Source: Candidatus Saccharimonadota bacterium (lineage in GTDB: Bacteria; Patescibacteriota; Saccharimonadia; Saccharimonadales; Saccharimonadaceae). Taken from it: a stretch of 64,000 bases of DNA. Position numbers and translations under genes: made by a program. Below are positions 42,831 to 59,272 of the stretch, piece after piece; the first letter of the stretch is position 1; the number at the start of each line of letters is the position of its first letter. The DNA lies in the NCBI GenBank assembly GCA_026395405.1, contig JAPLYU010000001.1:440696-504695 (forward strand), written 5' to 3'. The notes beneath the pieces are model-generated. The model did not search any database. It worked only from the letters and a program-made list of their open reading frames with translations, and had not been told where the DNA came from.

Positions 42831-42905
42831 AGGGGCATAGTACAACGGCTAGTATATGGGTCTCCAAAACCTAAGATCGAGGTTCGATTCCTCGTGCCCC
42901 TGCCA
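42831..42905 (+). tRNA. tRNA-Trp (CCA), encoded CCA end; start of cassette array (site S0)
   Basis: AGGGGCA...CTCCAAA anticodon loop...CGAGG-TTCGATT-CCTCG...TGCCCCT-G-CCA. Confidence 0.93.
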
Positions 42906-42963
42906 AGCTTAAGCACGATGGATTAAGGACTTCGTTTCGGAGTCTTTTTGTTATACTTAATTA

Positions 42964-44064
42964 ATGATTAGAAGCCAAGGGTTAACCAAGCCGATTATAG
43001 CTGTTGATATTGACGATGTTATTGCTGCTCACGCACCAGCGTTTATTGAATATAGTAATCAAAAGTTTGGGACTCACCTTACAATTGATGATAACCAAGA
43101 TCATTGGGGGAAAGTTTGGAAAGTAGAACACGACGAAGTTGAAAAACGGGCAACCGAATACCACGAATCGGGCTATATCGCTACTTATGGGATAATTGAT
43201 GGCGCATTTGAGGCACTAAAGTTGCTGAAGGAGCGCTTCAATTTAGTGATATTAACAACTCGTCGCAACTCAATCAACCATTTAACCCATGAATGGATTG
43301 ATAAATATTATCCAGATATTTTTGACGACATTGTCTTTGCTGGATTTTTTGATGTTCCCACAAAAGATAGTGTTAATATGACAAAAGCTGAACTCGCTAA
43401 ACAAATAGGGGTTGAATATTTGATTGATGACCAGTTTAAGCATTGTAAGGCAGCCTCAGATGTCGGGATAAAGACAATTCTTTTTGGCGATTATCCTTGG
43501 AACCGAGACGAAAAACTATCACCAAGTATAGTTCGAATTAAGGATTGGGCTGGTGTTCTTGATTTTTTCCTGAGAGTGAGTGTAAATATGGAAGATTTAT
43601 ACAAACAAGCCAATTTTTTTCTAGATAAAATTTTTAATAAACTTACAACAGATTGTATTAATGTAGAAAATTACAAACTTGACCATATTTGCTACCGAGC
43701 CGAATCTGAAGGCACATATATAAATATAAAAAAACTTCTGTTAGATAATGGAACTTTAAAGTCTGAGAATTTTATCCGTGAAAGAAGAATATCTGTATTC
43801 GAACTTTCTAAACCAATTGGATATAAAGACTACACAATAAATTGCATTGAATTATCATCACCTCGTAAAGATATGAGATTCATTGAAGGTTTTGAGCATG
43901 CTGAATTTGTAATTCTTGAAAACCTAGGGGATTTCTTGAAAATGCACCCAAACATAGAATTCAACAAAGAGGCTATGACGAAAGATGTCAATCCTGAGAT
44001 TATCAGGCAATACGAAAACTGTGCTGTTAAATTCCATCAAAAAGCCTTATTAGACGTTGTTTAG
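42964..44064 (+). CDS. HAD-type nucleotidase-like domain fused to YecM/VOC-like domain
   Basis: IAVDIDDVIAAHAPAF...VILTTRR...LIDDQFKHC; C-terminal KLDHICYRAESEGTY...HAEFVI. Confidence 0.7.
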   Translation: MIRSQGLTKPIIAVDIDDVIAAHAPAFIEYSNQKFGTHLTIDDNQDHWGKVWKVEHDEVEKRATEYHESGYIATYGIIDGAFEALKLLKERFNLVILTTRRNSINHLTHEWIDKYYPDIFDDIVFAGFFDVPTKDSVNMTKAELAKQIGVEYLIDDQFKHCKAASDVGIKTILFGDYPWNRDEKLSPSIVRIKDWAGVLDFFLRVSVNMEDLYKQANFFLDKIFNKLTTDCINVENYKLDHICYRAESEGTYINIKKLLLDNGTLKSENFIRERRISVFELSKPIGYKDYTINCIELSSPRKDMRFIEGFEHAEFVILENLGDFLKMHPNIEFNKEAMTKDVNPEIIRQYENCAVKFHQKALLDVV

Positions 44065-44083
44065 CGAAGATATTATCGAAATT

Positions 44084-44122
44084 AGTTCGAAAATCATCCA
44101 CGAGGGGCTGCCAAGCATAAGC
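44084..44122 (+). repeat. Boundary repeat S1
   Basis: AGTTCGAAAATCATCCACGAGGGGCTGCCAAGCATAAGC. Confidence 0.8.
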
Positions 44123-44238
44123 GCTATAATATTTTCCTCTGTTAATTCAGAACACATTTTAAAAATAATTTAATATGCAGAAATTAGGTAGATAGTTCTA
44201 GTGTCGTACAATATAATCTGCCAAGTTTATAATCAGAT

Positions 44239-44874
44239 CTAATTTTTTACGGCACCCATAAGCATTGTCTGTATTGAAGCCGTGTCTTGCGTTTGTGCAC
44301 TTAAATCAGCACCCGAACAATTATCTTGCGTCGATGAATAAACGTAGTAGTATCCGTCTATTTGTCCTATAAGAGTTGCGCTAGCATAGAAATCGGCTTT
44401 TGTAGTACTTCTGGAGACAATACCCAGGGGCATAAACCCTTCTGCGCTGGAGTTAGAGCAACGTTCACCCAAGGCCTCAACCCTTGTAGTAGAAAATGCA
44501 TAATATCCGCCGTCTGCCTGCTCCTTATAATAAGTTACTTTATTGCTACCAAGAGTGGTAGGAAGTTTAAATTTAACACCCCAATCACTTAGTACTAAGT
44601 ATCCAGCATTCGAGTTTGCAGGCGTTGCGGTAGTGGTTGATGTGCTTTTTGTTGTTGCAGTTGGAGTAGTGGTGTTGGTTGTCGTTGAAACTGTTCCGGT
44701 TGTTTTGCCATCTACGTTCTGTGAATTTGTGGAAGCATTACCGACAGTTGAATCCTTCTTCTGAATAAAGTTCTGATAAAACACAAAGCCGAGAGTTCCG
44801 ACTAAACCAACAGCTAAAATAATGGAAATAATCATTAAATGAGAGAAGCCTGATTGTTTTTGTTTTTTGTTCAC
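44239..44874 (-). CDS. Membrane-anchored extracellular hypothetical protein with Thr-rich linker
   Basis: N-terminal TM then TTGTVSTTTNTTTPTATTKSTSTTTATP. Confidence 0.65.
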   Translation of the reverse strand: MNKKQKQSGFSHLMIISIILAVGLVGTLGFVFYQNFIQKKDSTVGNASTNSQNVDGKTTGTVSTTTNTTTPTATTKSTSTTTATPANSNAGYLVLSDWGVKFKLPTTLGSNKVTYYKEQADGGYYAFSTTRVEALGERCSNSSAEGFMPLGIVSRSTTKADFYASATLIGQIDGYYYVYSSTQDNCSGADLSAQTQDTASIQTMLMGAVKN

Positions 44875-45003
44875 GAGATATCCTTTCGTAAAATATTGGT
44901 AGCCTCATTTAATCAGATATATATAATAACCACAAGTAGATTGAAGAAAAGTTTTATTATCTTCGCTTTATAGAATACTTTTGTTTGAAAGAATTATTTA
45001 ACT

Positions 45004-47499
45004 ATGCTTAGATACTATCATAAACATTTAAGGTCCAGCATGAACCCAAACGATTTAGACAAAGAAAATCTTACAAATAATAACAATGAACAAGCTAAAG
45101 ATAACACTTCAGTTATAACACCAGCTGTATTATTCCCTGAAACAAATCGAAAAAAGAATAATTATCTTAAAAAAACATCTTTAATATTATTTACTATATT
45201 ACTTTTAGTCATGGTCTTTATTGGAGGCAATTACTTAGCTGCAAGATTGGCCAGTAATGATTCAGTGGACAAGGTAAAAAGAGTGGCTGGAAACGGTTTT
45301 CTTGAGCTACCTAAAGATATAAGCGTTGATCAAGCAAAGAAGCCAACCGCCAAACAGGCGAGCAAAATTTTTAAGGAAATTCGTGACTTCGTAAACAAGA
45401 CTAGCTCATCTAACTCGGGAATTGCAGTTTCTCTAACGAAAAACGGGGAGACAATATCGTCCAATCCTTATCAGGTACAAAATGCATCATCAAGTACAGC
45501 ATATGCTGCTGAGGAAAATACAAATTCTTATATTTTAGCCGACCCTCCCGACAATACATTTCAAGCCTGGACCGATGCGCAAAAGATTCTGCTGAATGAA
45601 ACGATAAAAAGAGCATATGCTTTAAATGTAGAGCTTTATGGACCACCAGCATCTAATGATACTGTGAACATTTATCGTCAAGACAATCCGACAGTTGGAA
45701 ACGGATACTATGCGCCCTGGGGCACGAACGGAACGATGACAATAGTATTATCTTCAAACTGTACCGATGAATGCCTTACAACCAACTTGGCTCACGAAAT
45801 GTCACATAGCTTTCGCAGTAATTACATTTTTTCTAACAGGGGTTGGGAAGAGGGAATGGCGATGCTCTCCCAAAATTTATACGACAAGCAATACTTTAGT
45901 AAATATTTTCAAATCACATCCGATCAGTACATGAACCTGAACCAACCATCCTTATCGGTACCACTTTTTTATGACCAGACAGTAAATCAAGGCGCGTCTA
46001 ACTCCATTCAGGATCGTTATTTTGCAGCCGGCTATGCGATGGCAGACATATATGTTCAAAATAAGGACTATCTTAAGAATTTTGTTCAGAACTATTACCA
46101 AAAATCTAGATCTCAAACAGATTTAAGTGAATCGGATATCCGAAAAATCTTTATTGACACCGTCCCAAGCGTTGAGGGTGAAAATAGTACTTCCTGGCTT
46201 TATGATAATTATATATTGATAAATGACTATAATAAGTCGCAAAATTTAGTTTTGGCTGGTGGCAATATATATTATTTTGAAAATCCTATTACTGCATACG
46301 GCAACCGATTGCCTTATGTAAATGCTAAAATAACTGAAACTGTTTCGAAGTTGGACGATACTCAAGTTCTCAGCAATCAGTTAAACACTGATGATAAAGG
46401 ATTTGTTGAGAATAGCCTTATTGGTAAAGTACCTGAAAGTGGTTTCTATGGTATCCACTTGATCGCAGAGGCAAAGGAGGGCGCAGCTGCAAGTGAAGAT
46501 TATGTTCGCTATATCCCTAAAGACAAGCTTTTGGGTATTAATGGAAACGTGATTTTTGGCTACACAAATTCTGTTGATGACGTAATCGCCACCGCCACAG
46601 ATGGAACGAAACTGACATCCAAAGTTTCTGATGGAATATTTGTAATTAATGATGTGAAAGATATGCAGCAATATACACTTTCTCAAGGTGACAAAACACT
46701 GCTTGTTAACCTCGTTGGTGCCCCGTATGAAGAATTAGGTTTTATCAGTGGCACAAAAAATGGTTTAGTTGCCCCTAAAGATGCCACGATAGAATGGACT
46801 AATCCGAGTGAAGTAAACCCTGATCCGATCAAGGGGTCAATTCTGGTATTTAAAGATGGTCAAGTAAGCACCGATAAGCCCTATATTAACATTTGCGCTT
46901 CAATAAATGGCGGATATATAGCAGATTCAGTATCGATAAACAATTCTGGCGTAATCCTAAACAAGGGCTCATTTTGTAAATATTTCGATCTTAATAATGG
47001 TGTAAACAAATTCACAATTAAAGTTACTTCGAGTGACGGCAAAATTATAACAAGTGACCGCATCATAAATAGCACAAATACGACAAAAACGACCTATGAA
47101 AGCCTTGTTGACCTGACTGGTGGAGTCTATACCCAAAATGATACTGCTAATCAAAACAAAGTTTCTATATATGTTTATATTGAAGCTTCATCTACTGATG
47201 TAAGTACACTGAACGGTATTATATACGGGGTTTCGATTAATGGAAACCATTACAATCCAAATAGAAATCCCAATGATAGGTCTGTTACGGCCGCATTTTA
47301 TCAAATTAACGCTACAGATGTTACCAAAAGCAATCAAAGCACGGGCATATTATACTCGAACGAAATAAATGCTAATCTTTCACAATATCCTTTCAGAAGT
47401 GGTAATAATAAAATTTGCCTTACGATAGATCCACTTAACGGAGTAGAGGAGTCTGACGAAAACAATAATGACATATGTCAATATGTCACAGCACCATAA
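45004..47499 (+). CDS. Large membrane-anchored extracellular zincin-like metallopeptidase with C-terminal CARDB-like region
   Basis: N-terminal TM; TTNLAHEMSHSFRSNY (HExxH)...EEGMAML; C-terminal EESDENNNDICQ. Confidence 0.65.
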   Translation: MLRYYHKHLRSSMNPNDLDKENLTNNNNEQAKDNTSVITPAVLFPETNRKKNNYLKKTSLILFTILLLVMVFIGGNYLAARLASNDSVDKVKRVAGNGFLELPKDISVDQAKKPTAKQASKIFKEIRDFVNKTSSSNSGIAVSLTKNGETISSNPYQVQNASSSTAYAAEENTNSYILADPPDNTFQAWTDAQKILLNETIKRAYALNVELYGPPASNDTVNIYRQDNPTVGNGYYAPWGTNGTMTIVLSSNCTDECLTTNLAHEMSHSFRSNYIFSNRGWEEGMAMLSQNLYDKQYFSKYFQITSDQYMNLNQPSLSVPLFYDQTVNQGASNSIQDRYFAAGYAMADIYVQNKDYLKNFVQNYYQKSRSQTDLSESDIRKIFIDTVPSVEGENSTSWLYDNYILINDYNKSQNLVLAGGNIYYFENPITAYGNRLPYVNAKITETVSKLDDTQVLSNQLNTDDKGFVENSLIGKVPESGFYGIHLIAEAKEGAAASEDYVRYIPKDKLLGINGNVIFGYTNSVDDVIATATDGTKLTSKVSDGIFVINDVKDMQQYTLSQGDKTLLVNLVGAPYEELGFISGTKNGLVAPKDATIEWTNPSEVNPDPIKGSILVFKDGQVSTDKPYINICASINGGYIADSVSINNSGVILNKGSFCKYFDLNNGVNKFTIKVTSSDGKIITSDRIINSTNTTKTTYESLVDLTGGVYTQNDTANQNKVSIYVYIEASSTDVSTLNGIIYGVSINGNHYNPNRNPNDRSVTAAFYQINATDVTKSNQSTGILYSNEINANLSQYPFRSGNNKICLTIDPLNGVEESDENNNDICQYVTAP

Positions 47500-47582
47500 C
47501 ATTCTTAACACAGTAAAGTCGTGTTTTTTATACACGATTTTAGACACATCAACCCTAATGTTATTTAGATATTAAGCAGTAG

Positions 47583-47621
47583 GGTTCTAACTTCGTCTAG
47601 TATGCCCTGCCATGCATAATC
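47583..47621 (+). repeat. Boundary repeat S2
   Basis: GGTTCTAACTTCGTCTAGTATGCCCTGCCATGCATAATC. Confidence 0.8.
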
Positions 47622-47676
47622 ATAATGAATCTAAGGCTTCGTTTAGAAGCCTTTTTACTTATGCTAAACTAACGTT

Positions 47677-48900
47677 ATGAATGTCGCAACAAAGCGCAAA
47701 TCTTCCGGTTTTACGATAATCGAACTTTTGGTTGTTATAGTAATTATTGGCATATTAGCAACTGTAGCCATAGTATCCTACACCGGCATTTCTCAGAAGG
47801 CCACTATTGCCGGTTTGCAAACGGATTTAACAAACAGTGCGAACAAGCTTAAGATGTACTACACCGAGTACGGCACATACCCACAAACTCTTGATGGTTC
47901 TAATTGTCCAACTAGTCCATCGGATTCAAAATATTGTCTAAAGCCAACGCCGGGGAATACGTTTACATACAACTCTACAAATCCATATCAAACATTCACT
48001 TTGGACTGCACTAATACAGCGACTACGATTAATTACAGAATTACTAATAATTCAAGCCCGATTCTATCAACTATAGCTTTTTCGGCGTCGGGAGGCACAA
48101 TTACATACACTGATTCGTCTGGGTTAAATCCACGTTCAAACCCTTCATACCCAGGAGGATACACAGTACACACCTTTACATCCACCAGCACACTTACAAC
48201 AACAGGTTCAATCCAAGGTGACGTTTTGGTAATTGGTGGCGGTGGTGGAGCATCGTCGGCACCTGGCGGCGCTGGTGGCTACATAGCTACAACCTATACA
48301 CTGACAGGCAGTATTTCCGTAACTATTGGTCCTGGTGGTGTTGGTGTTGACCCAAACACAAATAGCAATAATGGAACGCCCACTATTTTTGGAACAATAA
48401 CGGCAGCGGGAGGTGGAGCTGGAGCAAGGTATGGAAACCTTAATGGAAACTCCGGAGGATCTGGTGGTGGAGGTGCATCAACGCCGAGTCTCCAAACATT
48501 CGGAGGTGCCGCAACTCCTGCTGGGCAGGGAAATATCGGAGGTGGAAACAGTACTTATTGGGGTACATCCAGGCCAAACGGAGGTGGCGGAGGAGCTGGA
48601 GCAGCTGGGCAAGATGCGCAATCACTTACACTTGCAGGGAATGGCGGAACTGGGCTATTTAACTCTATCACTGGCGTAAACGTATGTTATGCGGGTGGAG
48701 GTGGTGGAAGTACTTATATAAACACAGGTACTCCTGGAACTGCGACGTGTGGTGGTGGAAGCGGAAGTTCAGTTTATGCGGTCGCAGGAACCTCAGGTAC
48801 ACCAAATACGGGTGGAGGTGGAGGTGGAAGCAACGGCGGTAATCCACTTGGCGGGACTGGTGGCTCAGGTCTAGTAGTTGTTAGATATTTGTCTCCATAA
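47677..48900 (+). CDS. Type IV pilin-like protein with glycine-rich C-terminal domain
   Basis: SSGFTIIELLVVIVIIGILATVAIVSYTG; GGGGGASSAPGGAGGY...SGLVVVRYLSP. Confidence 0.85.
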   Translation: MNVATKRKSSGFTIIELLVVIVIIGILATVAIVSYTGISQKATIAGLQTDLTNSANKLKMYYTEYGTYPQTLDGSNCPTSPSDSKYCLKPTPGNTFTYNSTNPYQTFTLDCTNTATTINYRITNNSSPILSTIAFSASGGTITYTDSSGLNPRSNPSYPGGYTVHTFTSTSTLTTTGSIQGDVLVIGGGGGASSAPGGAGGYIATTYTLTGSISVTIGPGGVGVDPNTNSNNGTPTIFGTITAAGGGAGARYGNLNGNSGGSGGGGASTPSLQTFGGAATPAGQGNIGGGNSTYWGTSRPNGGGGGAGAAGQDAQSLTLAGNGGTGLFNSITGVNVCYAGGGGGSTYINTGTPGTATCGGGSGSSVYAVAGTSGTPNTGGGGGGSNGGNPLGGTGGSGLVVVRYLSP

Positions 48901-48901
48901 A

Positions 48902-48941
48902 AGTTCCAAAATCATCAACTAGTGGCTGCCAAACTCATGTT
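48902..48941 (+). repeat. Boundary repeat S3
   Basis: AGTTCCAAAATCATCAACTAGTGGCTGCCAAACTCATGTT. Confidence 0.75.
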
Positions 48942-48986
48942 TATCGAAAAAGACTTCGTTTAGGAGCTTTTTGTTATAATATACAC

Positions 48987-49382
48987 ATGAATGCGAACAA
49001 TAATTGTCCGTTTTGTCTAAAAAATAATGGCTTAAAGGAGCCAATTATCTTTGAAGATGACTTATGGTATTTTGCATCAATGAATGAAGAATCGGTAAGC
49101 AATGCCGGAATGGCTATTACGAAGAGGCACGTTAAGACACCGTTTGAAATCAATAAGAAAGAGTGGCTTAGACTACACGAGTTACTCCCAAAGTTCAAAG
49201 GGCTTTTAGATATAGATAAGCCACAAGGTTACAATATTGGGTGGAATGTCCATGAAACGGGCGGACAGCACGTAAGCCACGCTCATATGCACATAGTCGC
49301 ACGTTATAATGACGAACCGCTTGCAGGTAAGGGAATTAGATACGCATTTAAAGACAAAACAAATGCGAGAAAATCTATTTAA
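48987..49382 (+). CDS. HIT family hydrolase
   Basis: GYNIGWNVHETGGQHVSHAHMHIVARY. Confidence 0.9.
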   Translation: MNANNNCPFCLKNNGLKEPIIFEDDLWYFASMNEESVSNAGMAITKRHVKTPFEINKKEWLRLHELLPKFKGLLDIDKPQGYNIGWNVHETGGQHVSHAHMHIVARYNDEPLAGKGIRYAFKDKTNARKSI

Positions 49383-49428
49383 AGGTTGCGAATTGCGCCC
49401 ACTAGGGGTTGCCACGCATATGCTTATT
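49383..49428 (+). repeat. Boundary repeat S4
   Basis: GGTTGCGAATTGCGCCCACTAGGGGTTGCCACGCATATGCTTATT. Confidence 0.75.
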
Positions 49429-49584
49429 GACAAGCTTTGATAAACAATTGACTAAATTCGTAATATATCGTAGAATAACACTACTTTATTGAGTTTGAGG
49501 CACATCTGTTTGTCACGCTCTAAAGTACCTTGACAAGCAGACATTACACAAATGAGACGCAACCCTAAAGAAAGGCGAGGTCAA

Positions 49585-49803
49585 ATGAGTTCGCATGCAA
49601 GGCGTCAAGCGACAAGAGCACGTCTTAGGCAGCCAGAGGAGAGAATCTCTGTCAACCTGATGTGCGTCAACGCATCGAGACTCGGCGAGTGCCCCGGTGA
49701 CACTATCTGTGACTGCTGGGGTTGCCCGAGCCGCGGCCACGTCATCGTCGGCGGGTGCTGGGACCACAGAAGCTGCAAATGGTACGAAGCACCTACCACA
49801 TAG
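49585..49803 (+). CDS. Cys-rich small protein (GC-rich operon, gene 1)
   Basis: CVNASRLGECPGDTICDCWGCPSRGHVIVGGCWDHRSCKWYE; start uncertain (49552 or 49585). Confidence 0.5.
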   Translation: MSSHARRQATRARLRQPEERISVNLMCVNASRLGECPGDTICDCWGCPSRGHVIVGGCWDHRSCKWYEAPTT

Positions 49804-49816
49804 GAAGGTGACGACC

Positions 49817-50044
49817 GTGGCTGTTATAAAATCGGTGAGTGATTGGTGGCTCTTGCTTCCCATGGGCCTGATGGCAATGATTGCTGTACTCGTGTTCTTC
49901 GGAGTACAGGAAAACTCGTCAGACAAGACTGGGGAGCAGAGGGAGCCACATTCGTTTCTCAAAGCCACCGACGAACATGGTGGCCCATGTGACTGCGATA
50001 TATGCCGCGAGGCTGGTCGCTGGTATGGAGGAGGTGAAGCATGA
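49817..50044 (+). CDS. Small TM protein with CDCDIC motif (GC-rich operon, gene 2)
   Basis: GTG start; TM LLLPMGLMAMIAVLVFFGV; GGPCDCDICREAGRWY; stop overlaps next ATG. Confidence 0.55.
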   Translation: MAVIKSVSDWWLLLPMGLMAMIAVLVFFGVQENSSDKTGEQREPHSFLKATDEHGGPCDCDICREAGRWYGGGEA

Positions 50045-50280
50045 GCGCAGTTGAGGAATTCCGCTCATTCATGGATGACGCAGAAAGCCCCATTCTTAAC
50101 CTTGCCAAGGTGAGGGAAAGGGCTGAAGCAGCTTTCAGCGAGTTGAACGCCAAGGCGGAAAGAGAGATGAAGACCATCGTCCACGCCGCCGAGGGATACA
50201 TGGATAGGCGTGATCAAGCGTACTTTCGCACGATGCTGCGGAATCATTTCGGCCCAAGGGCCGACAAACTTCGCAGCTAG
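50041..50280 (+). CDS. Small helical hypothetical protein (GC-rich operon, gene 3)
   Basis: ATGA overlap with the upstream gene. Confidence 0.55.
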   Translation: MSAVEEFRSFMDDAESPILNLAKVRERAEAAFSELNAKAEREMKTIVHAAEGYMDRRDQAYFRTMLRNHFGPRADKLRS

Positions 50281-50505
50281 AGCAAGTTCTACTATGAAGG
50301 GCAGACCGGGTTTTCTAACCGGCTGCCTGGTGGCAACGCGCCTCTGTGCAAATATGTCTGTTTGTCATAATCACTTATTTGAATGTGTATTCAAACTGAT
50401 GAGTCCAAAAGGACGAAAAGCGACTTACATCCCCCCGACCGTCAAACTATATAGGAAACAGCCCTAGGACATTTTTGCTTATTTTTGTAACGTAGACATC
50501 AATAA

Positions 50506-50536
50506 AGTTCTAACTTCGTCTAGGATGCCCTGCCAA
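50506..50536 (+). repeat. Boundary repeat S5
   Basis: AGTTCTAACTTCGTCTAGGATGCCCTGCCAA, near-identical to S2. Confidence 0.8.
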
Positions 50537-50629
50537 ATAAAATAGGGCCGCGTGTACGTGGACCTTTTTTATTTGCAGAGATTCGAGTAATTGAATCACG
50601 ATACGCCACTTTACTGGCGGTAATCGTGG

Positions 50630-50681
50630 TCGGTGTAGCGATTGAAGCGAAAAGGTGTTAACATTTTTTCGTGAATGAGCG
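50630..50681. repeat. 52-bp dispersed repeat, copy B (inverted relative to 35701-35752)
   Basis: TCGGTGTAGCGATTGAAGCGAAAAGGTGTTAACATTTTTTCGTGAATGAGCG. Confidence 0.85.
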
Positions 50682-50697
50682 GAAGAGACTTGGCGCT

Positions 50698-50869: not shown

Positions 50870-51463
50870 ATGGACGACAACGAACAGCTTCGGATCATCA
50901 AGGGTTCGAGAGAATTGAAGTCGCCGGTTTCACCGATGGCTATGGCAAGACTCCTGTTCGAAGAGGGGAAAGAGCTGGCGCGGGACAGACTACTGCCGGC
51001 AGTCGTCAGCCACGGTTTCGATACTGGCTATGGCGTCTGCGGAGGCAGAAGAACGATTAGGTTCAACGAGCTCTGCCTCCCCGGCGAAATCTCTTCTGCC
51101 ATCGTCGTCGCTGAAACCAAACTGGCGACTGGAGAGATCTACGACCACAAAAGCCAAGAACGCCAGTTCCAACTAGGCATCCTCCTACTGGGGACAGTGG
51201 ATGGCAGCATGGCCCACTGGGTCTGGTCACAGGTGTGGATGCCATACCTCAACGATCAGTACTGCGAGGAACTCAATCTAGAAACCCTTGCGGACCTGAT
51301 GACGCCATCCGGCGAAGAAAACAAGCCAACCCTTTACGCTAAGGGAGTATACAGCGGCTACGAACGCATGCTGCGACGCAAGTACGACACCGCGTATCAG
51401 GTCAAGGAAGAGCTGTGGATGCAGGCGCATCAAGCGGGCGAACGGCTCTATCGAATCGGCTGA
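50870..51463 (+). CDS. Hypothetical protein (197 aa), GC-rich codon usage
   Basis: MDDNEQLRIIKGSRELKSPV...; followed by a strong hairpin. Confidence 0.65.
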   Translation: MDDNEQLRIIKGSRELKSPVSPMAMARLLFEEGKELARDRLLPAVVSHGFDTGYGVCGGRRTIRFNELCLPGEISSAIVVAETKLATGEIYDHKSQERQFQLGILLLGTVDGSMAHWVWSQVWMPYLNDQYCEELNLETLADLMTPSGEENKPTLYAKGVYSGYERMLRRKYDTAYQVKEELWMQAHQAGERLYRIG

Positions 51464-51499
51464 TCCGCCGAGATCACAGCTGAAAGTGGCGTTGCTGAA

Positions 51500-51530
51500 C
51501 CGCGGGACCCTCAAAAAAGGGTTCCCGCGG
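51500..51530 (+). terminator. Strong hairpin after 50870 ORF
   Basis: CCGCGGGACCCT-caaaaa-AGGGTTCCCGCGG, no U-tract. Confidence 0.5.
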
Positions 51531-51574
51531 AATCAGCACAATTCGACCTTAATGACTATCTCAAAAAATTAAAA

Positions 51575-51613
51575 AGTTCTAAAACAATCCACTAGGGACT
51601 GCCACGCATAAGC
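51575..51613 (+). repeat. Boundary repeat S7
   Basis: AGTTCTAAAACAATCCACTAGGGACTGCCACGCATAAGC. Confidence 0.85.
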
Positions 51614-51682
51614 ACTATTAATCATTGACTATCTTTTGGAGTCTTTTATATTCTAAGAATCCACTTATGTTAAACTAAACTT

Positions 51683-52870
51683 ATGAAAGTCGCTAGTTGG
51701 CGGAAAACTTCTGGTCCTGCCCGAACTGACGTTCAGACAGGCGGGTTTACTATCGTTGAACTTTTAGTTGTCATCGTGGTTATCGGCATTTTAGCTGCAA
51801 TTGCTATTGTTTCATACTCTGGTATATCTCAAAAAGCTATCATCGCGTCTTTGCAATCAGATTTAAGTAATGGAGCTAAAAAGCTAAAGCTTTATTACAC
51901 AGAGTATGGAGTTTATCCAGAATCACCACTAACTAACAATTGTCCAACTGGGACGATTAATCCGGCAAATCCCAACTACTGCATAAAACCAAGCCCAGGA
52001 AATACTTTTACTGCATATACTTCATTAACACCATATACATCATTTACGTTGGTTTCAACCAATACTGCTAGTGGATTATCGTATCAAATAACCGAAAATA
52101 GCGGGCCAATTGCAGTTGTTCCATTTACAGCCACCGGTGGGGCAACTTCGACTGACGGAGCCTATACTGTCAGAACATTTACAACAAACGCAACCCTTTC
52201 TACAACCGGAACGATTAATGCAAACGTATTGGTTGTAGGTGCGGGTGGAGGCGGTGGTCTTGCCGGAGGAGGTGGCGGAGAAGTACTGACAGGAAGCCAA
52301 GTCCTAACAGGTGATATGCCTATTGTAATTGGGGATGGTGGATTGGGTGTAAGGCCCGGTTGGGGTCCTGACGGTTTGGCAGGTGGCAACAGCACTTTTG
52401 GGACACGTACTGCTCGTGGTGGAGGTGGGGCGGCGGATTATGATCCTGCTACTGGTGGATCATCAGGAAATGGTTTTTCCGGTGGAGTAGAATCACTTTC
52501 ATACACATATTTTGGAGGTGGAGGTGGTGGGGCGAGTTCGATAGGAAACAATGCCAATCCAACTGGAGGAAACAGGGCGAATGGAGCTGGAGGTATCGGT
52601 GGTAATGGAGTAAATAGTGACATCATAACATCAGGGGTTTTTGTTGGCTATGGTGGTGGAGGTGGTGGTACGGGTTATGGGCCAAACTTTGCCGACACTT
52701 TATATGGGGCCTCAGCTACGCATGGTGGCGGTTACGGATCTGAATATGCTAGGCAAGACTATCCTCCCAGGGCAAATAGTGGGGGTGGGGGTGGGGGAAG
52801 CTTTTCGAATTCTATAAATGGACATACTGGTGCTAGTGGTATTGTGATAATTAGGTATCTTACACCGTAA
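51683..52870 (+). CDS. Type IV pilin-like protein with glycine-rich C-terminal domain
   Basis: GGFTIVELLVVIVVIGILAAIAIVSYSG; Gly-rich, ends SGIVIIRYLTP. Confidence 0.85.
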   Translation: MKVASWRKTSGPARTDVQTGGFTIVELLVVIVVIGILAAIAIVSYSGISQKAIIASLQSDLSNGAKKLKLYYTEYGVYPESPLTNNCPTGTINPANPNYCIKPSPGNTFTAYTSLTPYTSFTLVSTNTASGLSYQITENSGPIAVVPFTATGGATSTDGAYTVRTFTTNATLSTTGTINANVLVVGAGGGGGLAGGGGGEVLTGSQVLTGDMPIVIGDGGLGVRPGWGPDGLAGGNSTFGTRTARGGGGAADYDPATGGSSGNGFSGGVESLSYTYFGGGGGGASSIGNNANPTGGNRANGAGGIGGNGVNSDIITSGVFVGYGGGGGGTGYGPNFADTLYGASATHGGGYGSEYARQDYPPRANSGGGGGGSFSNSINGHTGASGIVIIRYLTP

Positions 52871-52908
52871 AGTTCTAAAATCATCCACCAGGGGCTGCCA
52901 AGCTTTAA
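52871..52908 (+). repeat. Boundary repeat S8
   Basis: AGTTCTAAAATCATCCACCAGGGGCTGCCAAGCTTTAA directly after the stop codon. Confidence 0.85.
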
Positions 52909-52960
52909 TTATCGAAAAGACTTCAGGATTGAAGTCCTTTACTTATGCTAAACTGGGCTT

Positions 52961-54193
52961 ATGAAAGTCGCTAGTTGGCGAAAAACTTATGGTCCTGCCC
53001 GAACTGACGTTCAGACAGGCGGGTTTACGATAGTTGAACTTTTGGTGGTTATCGTGGTTATTGGTATCCTGGCTGCCATTACCATTGTTTCCTACGCAGG
53101 GGTGTCTCAAAAAGCCGTCGCCACATCACTAACATCAGACCTTGATAATGCATCTAGACAATTAAAATTGTATCAAGTTGACCACGGCACTTTTCCAACT
53201 TCACCACTTACCGTTACGGGCAGCAAATACTGTCCGGCCGACGATAATAGATACTGCTTTAGGGCTAGTTCTGGTAACACAATTACTTATACTAACGTAT
53301 TACCCTCAACTTTTAGCCTTAAAGCAACCGATAATAGCAATACAACAGCTTATTCAATTACCAACAGTTCTATGCCGACCACAGCCGCCACCACCTGCCC
53401 AACTGGTTTCATTCCTGTTCCTGGCAGTTCTACTTATGGCACTAATGACTTTTGCGTAATGAAGTACGTTGCTAGCCATAGTGATGCCACTGCAGGAACT
53501 CAAGGCACCAGTACTACGCCGATAAGCGCACCTGGCGTTCAACAATGGGTCAACGTTTCCCAGACTGCTGCTATTGCTAATAGTCCCAACGTGGCTGGCT
53601 GTCCCACTTGTCACCTAATTACTGAAGCAGAGTGGCTTACTATTGCCCAGAATGTTCTAAGCGTACCCGGAAATTGGTCTGGAGCTGCTGTTGGTTCAGG
53701 CTATATTTCTTCGGGACATAACGACAATGCCCCAGCGAATGCTTTAGTGGCTGATCCAAGTGATGCCAATGGAAATGCCGGTGAAACTAACCAAACCTTC
53801 GCTCAGAAGCGCACCCTAACACTAACTAATGGTCAAGTGATTTGGGATATGGCGGGGAATGTTATGAAATGGACATCGGGCACAACTACAACAGTGCAAC
53901 CCGGAATAATCGGAGAACTTGGCTATGCCTATAAAGAATGGATATCTGTGACAACACAGGGTACGCTGACTCCCTATCCGTCGCCAGCATCAACTGGCAT
54001 AACGGGCGCCAGTAGTTGGACCACTAGTAATGGCGTCGGCATATTATATAGTTATGCTGGCGAAGTCTCGCCAAGTGGTTGCCTTCGTGGTGGCTACTGG
54101 AATGACGGCAGCTGGGCAGGTATTTTGGCACTTGGTTTGAGCTTTGCACCTAATACCACTAATACACTCATCGGTTTCCGTGTTTCCAGATGA
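52961..54193 (+). CDS. Type IV pilin-like protein with FGE-sulfatase/C-type-lectin-like C-terminus
   Basis: GGFTIVELLVVIVVIGILAAI; C-terminus GCLRGGYWNDGSWAGILALGLSFAPNTTNTLIGFRVSR. Confidence 0.8.
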   Translation: MKVASWRKTYGPARTDVQTGGFTIVELLVVIVVIGILAAITIVSYAGVSQKAVATSLTSDLDNASRQLKLYQVDHGTFPTSPLTVTGSKYCPADDNRYCFRASSGNTITYTNVLPSTFSLKATDNSNTTAYSITNSSMPTTAATTCPTGFIPVPGSSTYGTNDFCVMKYVASHSDATAGTQGTSTTPISAPGVQQWVNVSQTAAIANSPNVAGCPTCHLITEAEWLTIAQNVLSVPGNWSGAAVGSGYISSGHNDNAPANALVADPSDANGNAGETNQTFAQKRTLTLTNGQVIWDMAGNVMKWTSGTTTTVQPGIIGELGYAYKEWISVTTQGTLTPYPSPASTGITGASSWTTSNGVGILYSYAGEVSPSGCLRGGYWNDGSWAGILALGLSFAPNTTNTLIGFRVSR

Positions 54194-54263
54194 TATGACC
54201 TTAATTACTAATTTTTAAGTTGCGCCATAAACCATTGCCTCGAATCAATGGTTTATTTACAAA

Positions 54264-54300
54264 AGTTCTAAAATCATCCACTAGGGGTTGCCAAAATAAG
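54264..54300 (+). repeat. Boundary repeat S9
   Basis: AGTTCTAAAATCATCCACTAGGGGTTGCCAAAATAAG. Confidence 0.85.
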
Positions 54301-54340
54301 TCAATCGGCATTTTTTATCTTTGAATTTACTTAATTATTG

Positions 54341-54369
54341 TTGACAATTGAGTATCATTCTTTTATTAT
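54341..54369 (+). promoter_or_regulatory. Near-consensus promoter for radical SAM operon
   Basis: TTGACA-17-TATTAT. Confidence 0.75.
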
Positions 54370-54432
54370 ACTCAAGACAGTTCTCCTCCTTGGGAGTAGA
54401 AGAACTAAGCACCTTTAGAAGGAGTAACTAGT

Positions 54433-55488
54433 ATGGATAAGTTTGACTTCATCTGTCGACCCAAGATGTCATGGCTGACGGTCAACCGCCAGTGCAACTT
54501 CCGTTGTCCGTGGTGCTATGGTGAGGACACCCACTACGAGCCCAAGGACACGATGTCGCTGGCGATGGCCAAGGAGCTAACCAGGATCAACCTCGACGTC
54601 GGAGTCAGATACACCAACATCATCGGTGGTGAACCAACCCTCTGGCCAAGTCTGTTCGAGTTCAATGAGTACTGTAGGCAAGTCGGAATGAGCACCTGCC
54701 TGGTCACGAATGCCGCTCGATTTGGCGATGATTCGTTTTGGGACGCCTACAGGCAAAGTCCCAGCGATGAAGTCTCTGTGTCAGTGAAGACAGTCGACAG
54801 AGATGAGTTCAAGTTCATCACCAAGTCTCGTCTTTTCGACCAGACGATGAGGGGAATCGAACGCGCTATCGGTTTCCACAGTGCAGGCGCATCGACAGTC
54901 TACAACAGCCTTGTCGGTCTTGACGGGCTGAAGCGCATTGCGCTTCGCTGCAAAGAGCTTGGCGCGAGCTACTTCGTCGTTGACCTCTGTACACCTGTTG
55001 TCAGCAAGGACGGAGTTCTGCCGGGCTTCTCGATTGAGCCCACCCAGCTGGCGAAGGACATCATGGTCATCCAGCCGTATCTCGACGAGCTGTACGACGG
55101 AAAGGTCGAAATCGCCATTTACATCCCGCTGTGCCTCTTCCCGGAGGCATTCGTAGAGCTGATGATGGAGAAGCGTCAGCTGACTACCATCTGCCACGTC
55201 TACGATCGCAGCGGCCTCAACTTCGACGTCAATGGTGATGTCATGGTGTGTAACCAGCTGTTCGACTCTTACATCGCCAGAAAGGCGACGGACTACGAAG
55301 ACGGCACTGACCTGATGAAGCAAATCAACAGCAAGGCCGTTCGCAACGATTACAGGCAGTTGCTGCGCTATCCCGCAGACACATGCAGTGACTGCCGCTG
55401 GAACCTGGATTGCCGAGGCGGCTGCCTTCTCAATTGGGTTCTGTACGACTCGTCGATTTGCCACGCCGTCGCAAAGGCTAACGCCTAG
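54433..55488 (+). CDS. Radical SAM/SPASM-domain protein (putative RiPP maturase)
   Basis: CNFRCPWC (CX3CX2C); CHVYDRSGLNFDVNGDVMVC (C..GX4C); CSDCRWNLDCRGGC (CX2CX5CX3C); last Cys SICHA. Confidence 0.88.
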   Translation: MDKFDFICRPKMSWLTVNRQCNFRCPWCYGEDTHYEPKDTMSLAMAKELTRINLDVGVRYTNIIGGEPTLWPSLFEFNEYCRQVGMSTCLVTNAARFGDDSFWDAYRQSPSDEVSVSVKTVDRDEFKFITKSRLFDQTMRGIERAIGFHSAGASTVYNSLVGLDGLKRIALRCKELGASYFVVDLCTPVVSKDGVLPGFSIEPTQLAKDIMVIQPYLDELYDGKVEIAIYIPLCLFPEAFVELMMEKRQLTTICHVYDRSGLNFDVNGDVMVCNQLFDSYIARKATDYEDGTDLMKQINSKAVRNDYRQLLRYPADTCSDCRWNLDCRGGCLLNWVLYDSSICHAVAKANA

Positions 55489-55540
55489 TGACACCGTGTG
55501 GACACCGATGTATTGTTCTAAAACGGGAGGAGGTGACTCC

Positions 55541-55666
55541 ATGACCAAGCTTATCGACATGATGAAGAAGACCGGTACGACAATCGTTCCGGTACCGGCC
55601 CCTTCATCGTCTAGTTGCGGCAGCCAGGGCAGCAACCATCGCTGCAACCCGAGCAAGTGTCAGTAG
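55541..55666 (+). CDS. 41-aa Cys-containing peptide, candidate RiPP precursor
   Basis: MTKLIDMMKKTGTTIVPVPAPSSSSCGSQGSNHRCNPSKCQ; RBS GGGAGGAGG; directly follows the radical SAM gene. Confidence 0.65.
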   Translation: MTKLIDMMKKTGTTIVPVPAPSSSSCGSQGSNHRCNPSKCQ

Positions 55667-55707
55667 TGATCTGACCACGCTCGGCCTCCGCTGCAAACCC
55701 TCAACCG

Positions 55708-55745
55708 ATGCCAGCCGCACAACGCGGCTGGCATCTTTTCTTTTT
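55708..55745 (+). terminator. Rho-independent terminator of radical SAM operon
   Basis: GATGCCAGCCGC-acaac-GCGGCTGGCATC-TTTTCTTTTT. Confidence 0.93.
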
Positions 55746-55763
55746 ATCGATATACTTATTTAT

Positions 55764-56498
55764 ATGAAGCACAATTATAAAATTATTTATGACATCAATA
55801 AAGACATGTGGAATTGGCGCGGTGCGTTATCAGACTTTCGCATGGGATACGATTGGTTTAATAATATAGATAACGACCAAGATCGTAAAATCGCCAAACA
55901 AATTATAGGTTTAAAAAAGAATCAAGCCGAATTAACATTACGACCCCATCTTAAATCAAAAAAAGAAAATCCAAAAAGCAACTTAAATCAATTTATTTCT
56001 ATTGCCGAAAGCGAATTTAAGGCTAAGTTTAATAAAGCTTGTCTGATTTTAGAAAGCATTACTAAAAAACCGATGACGTCTGATAAATTTATCTTCTATG
56101 TCACGACTTTTCCTCGTATGACTTGTTTTTATGATAAACACATAATTTATCTATATAATTCTACCGAAGGCGTTTGGGGAATGCCAATCGACGGATTCTT
56201 GCACGAGGGCCTACATTTCCAATTCGAACATTATTGGCGAAACAATGCCGATTCGCCGGTTTCTAAATTAAGTGACGAGGACTATTTTAATCTAAAAGAG
56301 GCTCTGACGGTCATCCTAGACGAGAGCCTAAAGCCTACTATCACATTGCCCGATGAAAGTTACCCTGAACTAGCATATTTACGTAATCCGCTTCATGAAT
56401 TCTGGAAAAAATACCACAACTTTAATAAGTTAGTTGAATATGGTTTAAAAAACCTATCAAAAAATTCTAAATCTTCCAATAGGGACCGCCACGCCTAG
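55764..56498 (+). CDS. Hypothetical protein with HEGLH zincin-like motif
   Basis: GMPIDGFLHEGLHFQFEHYW; C-terminus encoded inside boundary repeat S10. Confidence 0.65.
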   Translation: MKHNYKIIYDINKDMWNWRGALSDFRMGYDWFNNIDNDQDRKIAKQIIGLKKNQAELTLRPHLKSKKENPKSNLNQFISIAESEFKAKFNKACLILESITKKPMTSDKFIFYVTTFPRMTCFYDKHIIYLYNSTEGVWGMPIDGFLHEGLHFQFEHYWRNNADSPVSKLSDEDYFNLKEALTVILDESLKPTITLPDESYPELAYLRNPLHEFWKKYHNFNKLVEYGLKNLSKNSKSSNRDRHA

Positions 56499-56506
56499 GC
56501 TTATCG
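56463..56506 (+). repeat. Boundary repeat S10
   Basis: AATTCTAAATCTTCCAATAGGGACCGCCACGCCTAGGCTTATCG. Confidence 0.75.
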
Positions 56507-56532
56507 GAAAAGACTTCGTTTTTAGATTTTTT

Positions 56533-57123
56533 TTAAAGTTTAAACACTGTCAAATTCTTCGGATTCTTTCTTTCCGCAGAGCTTTCGTCACGAACAATAG
56601 CCAAGATAATTTCACTAACTTCTGCCTCTATCCGAATTCCCTGTGGTAAATCTTGTAACGCCTTATCGAATCTTAGCTTCGATAAATCACGCCCGATTGT
56701 CAAATGTGGGATGAAATTATCTTCATAGGCCTTATGTTTGATATCACAAAAATCATTATTATTTTTAACAAAATCGCGCATCTTTAGCTGTAATTTCAAT
56801 AACTCGTCTATTTTTGATGCATTAACCATAATACAGCCATTATCGATTTCATCCTGTCGATCTAAGTACATACCGGCGAATTCTAATTTGATTTTTCCTA
56901 TTTTGTTATTCTTGAAATAATTACCCAATACTTTTTTGAGCTGAATAGCGTACTCGTCACCAACAAAGCGAGGTTGAGTTAGGGTTATATGCATATCGTA
57001 TGGCTCGTCTTCAAGCCTACACGTATCTTTGTTGTATTCTAGGTCATATTGATTCCTAAACTTATCTAGCCAAGCTGGTTTTTTGACTAAATGCACAGTA
57101 GTATATATTGCTGATATCTTCAT
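56533..57123 (-). CDS. 2H phosphoesterase / 2'-5' RNA ligase-like protein
   Basis: Two HxT motifs: MHITLTQP and HLTIGRD. Confidence 0.75.
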   Translation of the reverse strand: MKISAIYTTVHLVKKPAWLDKFRNQYDLEYNKDTCRLEDEPYDMHITLTQPRFVGDEYAIQLKKVLGNYFKNNKIGKIKLEFAGMYLDRQDEIDNGCIMVNASKIDELLKLQLKMRDFVKNNNDFCDIKHKAYEDNFIPHLTIGRDLSKLRFDKALQDLPQGIRIEAEVSEIILAIVRDESSAERKNPKNLTVFKL

Positions 57124-57149
57124 CTATAATACTAGTATAACATTTGAAA

Positions 57150-57192
57150 AATTCTAAAATCATCCCAGAGGGCTGTCACGCCCATGCTTATT
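57150..57192 (+). repeat. Boundary repeat S11
   Basis: AATTCTAAAATCATCCCAGAGGGCTGTCACGCCCATGCTTATT. Confidence 0.75.
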
Positions 57193-57222
57193 AAAAGTTA
57201 AGCAATTTGATATGATTACTAC

Positions 57223-57729
57223 ATGGATATAAGGTTGTTTTTACGTCCCCCAGAAATAATCGAAGTAGATAGCCCAGTAATTTTTCTAGCAGGTCCAATT
57301 CAGGGAGCTCCGGACTGGCAGTCAGAAGCAAGAAAAATTATTCATAAAATAGACGAGTCAATTGTCGTTGCTTCACCACGTGGCGATTTTAAGAAATCCA
57401 AGTCATTTGTTTATGAAAAACAAGTTGACTGGGAAACACATTATTTAAGAGAGGCTGGAAAAAATGGAGTGGTTTTGTTTTGGTTAGCTGGACAAACTAC
57501 AGACACTCCGGGACGTTCATTCGCACAAACCTCTCGATTTGAGTTGGCTGAATGGAAGGTACGACACGAACGTGATGGAGTTAAATTAACAATTGGAATT
57601 GATGAAAACTTTGGGAATGCACGATATATTAGACGTCGCTTTTCTCAGGACGCACCCGATGTTCAGATTGCCGATTCGCTGGTAGAAACATGTAAAAATG
57701 CAGTTAATTTATTGAATAAAAAGTTCTAA
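57223..57729 (+). CDS. Nucleoside 2-deoxyribosyltransferase-like protein
   Basis: VIFLAGPIQGAPDWQSEARKII...RSFAQTSRFELAEW. Confidence 0.75.
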   Translation: MDIRLFLRPPEIIEVDSPVIFLAGPIQGAPDWQSEARKIIHKIDESIVVASPRGDFKKSKSFVYEKQVDWETHYLREAGKNGVVLFWLAGQTTDTPGRSFAQTSRFELAEWKVRHERDGVKLTIGIDENFGNARYIRRRFSQDAPDVQIADSLVETCKNAVNLLNKKF

Positions 57730-57760
57730 AATCATCCACAACTATGTGCCAAAATGAATT
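57722..57760 (+). repeat. Boundary repeat S12 (diverged 3' half)
   Basis: AGTTCTAAAATCATCCACAACTATGTGCCAAAATGAATT. Confidence 0.7.
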
Positions 57761-57834
57761 GCTAAGTATTTATATTCGACTATTTATTTTGATATGATAG
57801 GTTTATGCATACTTTAGAAATAAAAAGGATCTGA

Positions 57835-58671
57835 ATGGAGCTTTCAATAAATACAGATTACGCTGGTGTTGATGTTGGGGATATCGAACATTATCTAAAA
57901 AACATCTCAGATTCGGGTTTCAAGACTATCCAATGGTTACAACATTGGGAGCATGATTTTATCTATACGAAACCGGAAATTGAGCATATTTCAAAAATTT
58001 TGCAAAAATATAAACTATTACTTTACGACATTCATGGCCCGGTCGGGTATGAGAAAAATTGGTTTTCAAACATTGAATATCAAAGGCTAGCAGGAGTTGA
58101 GTTAGTAAAAAACAGAATAGAAATGTGCAAGGCACTCGGCGGATCAGTCGTAGTTATGCACGTACCTAAATTGGATAGTCGTATCGATACCCAATGGATT
58201 CAAGTTAGAAAATCCCTTAATGAACTTCAAGAAACATCAGCTAAGAACAATGTTAGAATTGCACTTGAGAACATGGAATACGAAAGTTTTAATGGAATTA
58301 AAGAACTTTTTTCTGAATATAACTCAGACTTTATTGGCCTTTGTTACGATTCAGGGCACGGAAATATATGTGGAGACGGTCTTGACCAACTTGATTTAGT
58401 AAAGGAAAGATTAATATCTGTGCATCTTCATGATAATAATGGACTCGAAGACCAACACATGCCTATTTTTACAGGTACCGTTGATTGGGAAAAACTTGCA
58501 CAAATCATTGCTGAGTCTCCATATGGAAAATTTCTGACATTCGAAATAATGATGGAACACTCTGGCGCAAATGACGAAAAGCTTTTTCTTGAATCTGCAT
58601 ATAAGGATGGAATGAAACTCTTAAAGATGGTCCAATCCTATGCAGAAAATAAACTTCCCGCAAATGTATAG
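57835..58671 (+). CDS. Sugar phosphate isomerase/epimerase-like TIM-barrel protein
   Basis: GLCYDSGHGNICGDGLDQLDLVKERLISVHLHDNNGLEDQHMPIFTGTVDWEKL. Confidence 0.85.
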   Translation: MELSINTDYAGVDVGDIEHYLKNISDSGFKTIQWLQHWEHDFIYTKPEIEHISKILQKYKLLLYDIHGPVGYEKNWFSNIEYQRLAGVELVKNRIEMCKALGGSVVVMHVPKLDSRIDTQWIQVRKSLNELQETSAKNNVRIALENMEYESFNGIKELFSEYNSDFIGLCYDSGHGNICGDGLDQLDLVKERLISVHLHDNNGLEDQHMPIFTGTVDWEKLAQIIAESPYGKFLTFEIMMEHSGANDEKLFLESAYKDGMKLLKMVQSYAENKLPANV

Positions 58672-58673
58672 TA

Positions 58674-59201
58674 TCAGTCTATTTTTTTGACCCCCGGATA
58701 AGACGTAGAATTCTTTATTTTCCCGTATTCTCTCCAGATGAGCCAAATAATGAATACGTCGAAAACAGTTAATAGAACCATAGTAAATGAAACTTTAACA
58801 AAAATTATTTCATAAAGTTGATACACCGTAAAAATGCCAAGAGTAATCAAAGAGAATGGGTAAGCCCATAGTTTATTTCTAAGAATTCCAATTACGGCAA
58901 TCAATTTAACTGCAGCATGAACCCACAAGTATGCTACCAAAAAATAACGACCGCCGTTTGTATAATGTTGAGATGAATTTATTAGTAAATTTGCAAGGAA
59001 ATCATGTGGGTCACTACTTAATTCCTGATGAGTTGCAAAAACCACGAGGTTATTAAGTTTTTCGGGGCTCAGGAACAAGAACACGAATCCAAGTAATAAT
59101 TCTATTAAACCATCGATACCTTTAAATAGTATCCCTATAACAAATGACTTTTCAAAAAGCGATTTAGGATGTAACCAGTCGATATCTATTTTTTTATCCA
59201 C
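58674..59201 (-). CDS. DUF2127-like membrane protein
   Basis: FVIGILFKGIDGLIELLLGFVFLFLSPEKL; four TM helices. Confidence 0.65.
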   Translation of the reverse strand: MDKKIDIDWLHPKSLFEKSFVIGILFKGIDGLIELLLGFVFLFLSPEKLNNLVVFATHQELSSDPHDFLANLLINSSQHYTNGGRYFLVAYLWVHAAVKLIAVIGILRNKLWAYPFSLITLGIFTVYQLYEIIFVKVSFTMVLLTVFDVFIIWLIWREYGKIKNSTSYPGVKKID

Positions 59202-59232
59202 TATTCTATTTTATAGTAATGTGCTTAATTTT

Positions 59233-59272
59233 TGGTTGCGAACCTTATCCTCTAGGGGACTGCTAAGCTACG
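59233..59272 (+). repeat. Boundary repeat S13 (last recognised)
   Basis: GGTTGCGAACCTTATCCTCTAGGGGACTGCTAAGC. Confidence 0.6.

Follow-up and report, generated by a model that had tools for sequence, protein, structure and literature searches.

The stretch between 42.9 and 59.3 kb is, with a probability of roughly 0.78, an integron-like array of non-autonomous cassettes that is seeded on a tRNA gene and was most likely mobilised in trans by large serine recombinases (LSRs), a step that we infer from relatives and from a second array in the same genome. It belongs to Candidatus Saccharimonadota bacterium (GCA_026395405.1, 855 kb). The window is the whole stretch analysed, 64,000 nt of contig JAPLYU010000001.1; coordinates are window positions, the sites are named S0 to S13 and S1′ is an extra site. 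The genomes of Patescibacteria are tiny, and the cells are presumed to live on the surface of hosts. A compact hot spot that takes up single genes and leaves an essential tRNA unharmed would explain part of how they acquire new genes. The features of the array are:

42831-42905, + strand: tRNA-Trp (ARAGORN; CCA anticodon, encoded CCA end), array head and attB-like target
42900-42914, +: S0, tRNA end plus right half-site of the first cassette, CTGCCA/AGCTTAAGC
42906-44107, +: cassette 1, terminator-like hairpin, then ORF 42964-44064 (NT5C and YecM domains)
44083-44113, +: S1, left half-site and core (E 2.5e-10)
44194-44230, +: S1′, degenerate extra site (E 0.08)
44114-47606, +: cassettes 2a/2b, ORF 44239-44874 (- strand) and ORF 45004-47499 (831 aa, no confident family)
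47582-47612, +: S2, class b left half (E 7.7e-7)
47613-48925, +: pilin-like cassette, N_methyl and Gly_rich_2 protein, ORF 47677-48900, stop codon adjoining S3
48901-48931, +: S3 (E 4.5e-8)
48932-49408, +: HIT-domain hydrolase cassette, ORF 48987-49382
49384-49414, +: S4 (E 1.4e-5)
49415-50529, +: GC-rich cassette (50% G+C), small ORFs and a candidate hammerhead ribozyme at 50370-50424
50505-50535, +: S5, class b
50536-50715, +: non-coding mini-cassette of 180 bp, ending in S6 (50698-50715), an 18-nt copy of the tRNA-Trp 3′ end
50716-51598, +: GC-rich cassette (51% G+C), ORF 50870-51463 (no family)
51574-51604, +: S7 (E 4.2e-9)
51605-52894, +: pilin-like/Gly_rich_2 cassette, ORF 51683-52870, stop codon adjoining S8
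52870-52900, +: S8 (E 4.8e-10)
52901-54287, +: pilin-like cassette, ORF 52961-54193
54263-54293, +: S9 (E 5e-9)
54294-56484, +: cassette with radical SAM protein (54433-55488), short Cys-rich ORF from 55541 and ORF 55764-56498
56462-56491, +: S10 (E 1e-5)
56492-57172, -: 2′-5′ RNA ligase/LigT-like cassette, ORF 56533-57123 (-)
57149-57178, +: S11 (E 6.5e-5)
57179-57745, +: nucleoside 2-deoxyribosyltransferase-like cassette, ORF 57223-57729, stop codon inside S12
57721-57751, +: S12 (E 7.6e-6)
57752-59259, +: cassette with AP_endonuc_2 TIM barrel (57835-58671, +) and DUF2127 (58674-59201, -)
59234-59265, +: S13, last site (E 7.4e-5)

All 14 boundary sites listed in the earlier note are present on the + strand, displaced by about 2 nt at most. 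A site model made from sequence only gave 14 matches in this genome (E≤0.05), all on the + strand and all inside 42.8-59.3 kb of the window, so that the matches are confined to the array and not spread evenly over the genome. When both strands of the window were scored with leave-one-out matrices, 11 of the 12 sites S1-S5 and S7-S13 scored higher than any other place; the exception, S13, was equalled or bettered at 22 places, and the scores of S0 and S6 were matched by about 170 other places. Since the degenerate fifteenth site S1′, absent from the earlier list, lies between S1 and S2, this interval probably holds two cassettes.

Conservation of the sites is one-sided. The left half-site, roughly 26 bp (AAGTTCTAA..TCRTCCACKAGGGG) directly past the stop codon, is conserved, and the right half-site is much weaker, usually GCCA plus variable sequence, often A/C-GCATAAGC. 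The halves meet at a short core within CTGCCA, and the smallest core common to variant junctions is CT. It had been claimed that a tRNA segment aligns to the repeat ends; this holds mainly for CTGCCA and the sequence after it. Plain copies of the tRNA end the repeats are not: at S0 the tRNA is joined to the right end of the first cassette, S6 is the only genuine 18-nt copy among the sites, and the left half of the repeat comes from the end of the mobile element.

The 108 cassettes measured have a median length of 744 bp. The longest ORF lies on the site strand in 87 of the 105 that bear an ORF, with a median of 35 bp from stop codon to core; as in integrons, cassettes of one orientation are arrayed with a site 3′ of each gene. 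A typical cassette consists of the right half-site, commonly a terminator-like hairpin and a promoter-like stretch, usually one gene, and the left half-site. Cargo is mostly unrelated between modules, as was first noted, except that three cassettes carry related type-IV-pilin-like genes, two of them with 175 bp in common at 86% identity. Padloc, run on the cargo, gave nothing beyond weak viperin-like matches for the radical SAM protein, which were judged generic. Decay of the sites with distance from the tRNA, tested as a clock of insertion order, showed no significant trend (pooled rho -0.10, p 0.40).

Comparison of related genomes, mostly metagenomic assemblies, locates gain and loss of cassettes at the tRNA-Trp locus exactly at the repeats. 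The alignment with the closest relative, G018, runs through tRNA-Trp, ends about 21 bases past it and resumes at 59416; between these conserved flanks only short stretches at sites match, and S5 shares 38 identical bp with a site in the G018 array. Between G002 and G004, homology stops exactly at the last base of tRNA-Trp, and a whole 331-bp cassette is common to both at 98.5% identity with different neighbours. At a second, non-tRNA locus of this pair the flanks are common (91% and 98.8%) and the contents differ, 14 sites in one and an LSR-bearing stretch in the other. Judged from these assemblies, the sites are shown to be boundaries of mobile cassettes, and one cassette is shown to have moved between genomes as a whole unit. 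Together with the array specificity of the sites, this supports the proposal of repeated site-specific capture at the tRNA end.

The site model matched 18 of 28 genomes of the genus, often in clusters, and most large arrays are headed by tRNA-Trp, whose 3′ end is shown, at the level of genome comparison, to be a genus-wide hot spot. A strict site pattern was found in 18 stretches among 84,980 species genomes, and all named lineages among them belong to the CPR; viral contigs gave no sites. By one short DNA motif, gene flow in Patescibacteria would become countable.

A search agreed with the earlier note that the window contains no recombinase. In the genus, 27 of the 41 LSR ORFs analysed overlap or abut the 3′ end of a tRNA gene, at a distance of 250 bp or less, and every one of the 27 is convergent. 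The proteins have PF00239, mostly with PF07508 and PF13408, match the phrog_95 integrase and comprise several specificities; their phage and plasmid relatives are all below 60% identical (23-27% among the matches listed), and none was confirmed in viral contigs. In relatives, the LSR gene sits at the element end beside its target, tRNA-Trp or tRNA-Gln. The Trp-LSR elements of G023, G017 and G001 start at the same CTGCCA as the cassettes. At its far end the G023 element has a class b site identical to S5 in 35 of 39 nt; for the G001 element no far end was found in about 42 kb downstream. The genome under study has two LSR loci, one at tRNA-Pro and the other beside a Gln-type site, neither inside the tRNA-Trp array, and no Trp-type LSR was found in it. 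It does have a second array, behind tRNA-Gln, whose site matches that of the Gln-type LSR element. The Gln-LSR elements of G014, G001 and this genome all end in the half-site of the tRNA-Gln array of this genome, and at up to 3 mismatches the sole copy of the Gln site in this genome outside the array is the end of the LSR element. One G004 cassette opens with the C-terminal ~50 codons of a Trp-LSR gene and has the same right end; LSR remnants occur in 2 of the 108 cassettes. The half-site common to LSR elements and cassettes is thus seen directly for the Gln type and for Trp class b, and for class a the link runs through a G002 element (L038 to L037, analysed on both sides of a 1-kb gap), the remnant cassette and right-half similarity. 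As far as the DNA can tell, autonomous LSR elements are shown to occupy the same tRNA end as the cassettes and to bear the same half-sites, and cutting and joining appear to be the work of a phage-type LSR that other mobile elements supply.

According to this model, a cassette circle would carry left half, core and right half as attP, and an LSR acting in trans would recombine it with the tRNA 3′ end (attB), with exchange probably at the 2-bp core (CT). Integration would restore the tRNA, and cassettes would pile up behind it. The enzyme acting at tRNA-Trp would have arrived and left again with mobile elements, because no Trp-type LSR was found in the genome now; for the tRNA-Gln array the presumed partner, a matching LSR element, is still present. 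Several points run against the LSR model: conservation is much lower in the right half-site than in the left one, whereas classical serine integrases recognise both sides of their attP; serial insertion at one tRNA needs re-use of an attL-like junction, which is disfavoured for classical LSRs without a directionality factor; G015 has an array but gave no LSR match (E≤0.001); and the sites do not decay significantly with distance from the tRNA.

It is unlikely, though the strongest of the alternatives, that another or unknown enzyme moves the cassettes and that LSR elements coincide at tRNA sites or borrow cassette ends. The site is asymmetric, and G015 and G008 have arrays or sites without an LSR match (E≤0.001 for G015, which has an array); against this, LSR gene ends form part of a cassette's right end, and the stray Gln site lies only at an LSR element end. 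Less probable still is a chromosomal XerC/D-type tyrosine recombinase acting at the tRNA end, as on Acinetobacter pdif modules. Among the 28 genomes of the genus, 27 gave PF00589 matches, for the most part to a XerC/D-type protein, the only near-universal one and the sole PF00589 protein in array-rich G002, G004, G009, G015 and G018. Xer is, however, present with or without arrays, the conserved left half of ~26 bp with its weak partner does not resemble a pair of 11-bp arms separated by a 6-8-bp spacer, and the cassette ends are those of LSR elements. The evidence thus points to LSRs and away from the tyrosine recombinase that the earlier note would have sought. Of the two PF00589 proteins in the genome under study, L001 matches XerC/D models best, and both fall far below the cut-off of integron-integrase models.

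It is very improbable that independent tRNA-targeting islands accumulated one after another, each having lost an integrase of its own, with no common cassette pool: islands classically target tRNA 3′ ends and several LSR specificities exist, but the units are mostly single-gene with one common half-site, can move between species whole, and rarely hold LSR remnants. That the repeats are conserved 3′-UTR, terminator or regulatory elements, as their place directly past stop codons and ahead of hairpins might suggest, can practically be dismissed, since synteny breaks and cassette swaps fall at them, they have no conserved fold and the rest of the genome lacks them.

Returning to LSR-mobilised cassettes, we consider it fairly probable that the CPR has an independent, integron-analogous gene capture based on a tRNA-targeting LSR family, with the enzyme in trans, pools for several tRNAs and protein-less units of 180 bp included. 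Pools are shown for Trp and Gln; mini-cassettes suggest further ones for Ser, Leu and other tRNAs. Like integrons and sedentary chromosomal integrons, the array is linear, of one orientation and made of small, mostly single-gene cassettes with the site past the stop codon, a fixed head and high turnover. Unlike in integrons, there is no IntI-level match, the head is tRNA-Trp and not an attI next to intI, the half-sites recur on LSR elements, and cassettes appear to bear their own promoters and terminators. The layout is also unlike attC, as first noted; consensus folding, over 44 aligned columns only, gave no pair. SCC/SCCmec elements, driven by Ccr serine recombinases, likewise form tandems at a single conserved site close to the 3′ end of a gene, including elements without a recombinase. 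SCC units measure tens of kb, whereas those here are single genes of about 0.7 kb that follow one another in runs of up to 14, and the target is a tRNA and not rlmH; matches of the LSRs to NCBIfam Ccr models are distant and far below the cut-offs. tRNA-targeting islands and tycheposons also use and restore a tRNA 3′ end and have cargo-only variants, but differ in recombinase class (tyrosine) and unit size and from the dense tandem array with a common half-site. Acinetobacter pdif modules are likewise small, recombinase-less and bounded by site-specific recombination sites, but these are dif-like and served by Xer, plasmid-borne and without a tRNA seed.

In the open-access literature searched (subscription journals and preprints lie outside it), no LSR or integron cassette arrays are reported in Saccharibacteria. 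tRNA-targeting LSRs appear unusual, since the serine integrases described in that literature do not use tRNAs, and they could serve as integration tools for Patescibacteria. Serine-integrase IMEs and ICEs resemble the LSR elements in having the LSR gene at the element end, a C-terminus changed by integration and a short common core; those of the streptococcal rumA type target protein genes (PMC4701971), and the tRNA-targeting systems described in mycobacteria are of the tyrosine type (PMC10654092).

All 14 of the related repeats (S0-S13) that the earlier note had described at the cassette boundaries behind tRNA-Trp are present, on direct reading as well as by alignment. R1, a sequence-only site model, recovers 14 of 14 in the window (E ≤ 0.0023), all on the + strand, and its scan of the window revealed an additional degenerate site at 44194-44230. 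In the 855-kb genome R1 has 14 matches at E ≤ 0.05, every one inside the Trp array, which contradicts an even spread of matches over the genome; three weaker matches elsewhere proved to be Gln-type sites of this kind. Leave-one-out scoring left 11 of 12 left half-sites unmatched by any equal elsewhere in the window. The proposed likeness of tRNA and repeats holds mainly in CTGCCA and the right end of the first cassette.

A profile of 138 non-tRNA sites, taken both within and outside the genus, shows conservation starting about 26 bp ahead of the core in the left half (AAAAGTTCTAA..TCGTCCACTAGGGG), peaking in CTGCCA and decaying within about 8 bp after the core (AGcAtAAgc). The cassettes (n = 108) have a median length of 744 bp. 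Their main ORF, in site orientation in 87 of 105, starts a median of 69 bp past the core and stops a median of 35 bp ahead of the next core; in the window, stop codons abut or lie inside the site at S3, S8 and S12. Between many sites and the ATG come a terminator-like hairpin and a promoter-like stretch; at any insertion point these would allow the gene to be expressed and transcription of the tRNA to be terminated.

Gain and loss of cassettes at the repeats, for which a comparison of strains had been suggested, is borne out by the tRNA-Trp locus of relatives. Across the genus the upstream genes are the same and the downstream side differs in almost every genome. With the closest relative, G018, a single unbroken 6.9-kb alignment (78.5%) runs through the tRNA and homology resumes only at 59416; the 16 kb versus about 12 kb between these flanks have in common only stretches of 29-62 bp at sites, and one 38-bp stretch at a site is identical. 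Homology between the relatives G002 and G004 breaks off at the tRNA's final base in each genome, and a common 331-bp cassette (98.5%) has different neighbours. At a second, non-tRNA locus they share both flanks (91% and 98.8%); the contents are a 14-site array in G004 and a large serine recombinase (LSR) element in G002.

A search for tyrosine recombinases (PF00589), as had been suggested, left nothing but Xer in G002, G004, G009, G015 and G018. The search for serine recombinases (PF00239) gave 42 matches, of which 41 loci were read, and in 27 of the 41 an LSR gene lies ≤250 bp from a tRNA 3′ end, convergent in all. The tRNAs concerned are Trp, Gln, Glu, Pro, Leu, Ser, Gly, Asn, Val, Arg, Lys and Phe, and the domain content of these LSRs is that of large serine integrases. 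Since the serine integrases covered in PMC4701971 and PMC10654092 have targets other than tRNAs, protein genes among them, a whole LSR family directed at tRNA ends is unusual. At LSR loci of the genus (for example the fetched stretches L095-L100) the genes overlap the tRNA genes, with C-terminal codons antisense to the tRNA, so that integration would alter the C-terminus of the LSR.

The following features lie in this genome (G000, stretches L003 and L086; the window) and in stretches fetched from it and its relatives:

L003 1835-6800 (G000:C4:545.8-550.8 kb): second array, behind tRNA-Gln(CTG), with a site type of its own
L086 6559-13223 (G000:C4:430.5-437.2 kb): LSR element, which also encodes a rolling-circle Rep (REP_ORF2-G2P) and a D12 adenine methyltransferase
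Window 50536-50715; L003 1905-2139; L162 11094-11278; L044 11745-11927; L045 11900-12086; L092; L110; L123: non-coding mini-cassettes of about 180-230 bp

The Trp-type LSRs form two clades that parallel the two classes of left half-site. The G023/G017 clade goes with class b: the far end, located at L049 9013, is identical to S5 in 35/39 nt. The G001/G002 clade goes with class a, as judged by the G002 element (L038 7310 to L037 8181) and by similarity in the right half. The Gln-LSR elements of G001, G014 and this genome have the terminal sequence CTGAAACRCRTCCACTAGCCCCAGCCA, which is the site of the tRNA-Gln array; the cargo of that array is pilin-like and related to the pilins of the Trp array. 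The element in L086 is inserted between trigger-factor-like and ClpP-like genes and is followed by one further cassette. A G004 cassette opens with a Trp-LSR tail about 50 codons long and has the matching right end; one in G003 carries a similar but weaker trace of another LSR. This is as one would expect of LSR-element derivatives that are non-autonomous. We infer an LSR reaction with a 2-bp core, acting in trans. The weak conservation of the right half is a difficulty for this model, as is the repeated use of the tRNA junction that it would require. Among the compared assemblies, mostly metagenomic, the PF00239 search found no LSR at E ≤ 0.001 in the array-bearing G015; thus, arrays can outlast the enzyme or a different enzyme is at work.

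Each mini-cassette terminates in a tRNA 3′-end copy (Trp, Gln, Ser or Leu), and they have an internal hairpin-like sequence in common, with 24 model matches in the fetched loci. They may represent a miniature element, or an RNA, of a new kind.

The strict site pattern occurs in 18 stretches among 84,980 species genomes, titled as Saccharibacteria, Roizmanbacteria, Parcubacteria, other Patescibacteria or without lineage ("bacterium", "uncultured bacterium"); several of the latter match genus contigs analysed here. In most stretches from outside the genus that include the tRNA, the site follows tRNA-Trp at a distance of 0.5-1.3 kb downstream. Broad samples, screened with stricter filters at the cost of weak matches, contained the site in 8 of 380 genomes from the phylum (E ≤ 1e-4) and in 18 of 198 from the order (E ≤ 1e-3), own genus included. 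The array, which had been called integron-like, resembles an integron in its way of working but does not qualify as one, having neither IntI nor attC and being headed by a tRNA. Nearest in mechanism are SCC elements, here reduced to single genes. No earlier description of such arrays was found in the open-access library searched.

The GC-rich cassette between S4 and S5 contains a candidate type III hammerhead ribozyme (50370-50424, + strand, core CTGATGAGTCCAAAAGGACGAAA), which is under the gathering score in Rfam (E 0.0019) and folds no better than shuffles. At 54433-55666 a radical SAM protein with a SPASM-like C-terminus precedes a short ORF rich in Cys (near 55541), possibly a peptide-modification (RiPP) cassette. 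The cassettes at 49415-50529 and 50716-51598 have 50-51% G+C, compared with a cassette median of 40%, and possibly hold genes captured from a GC-rich host.
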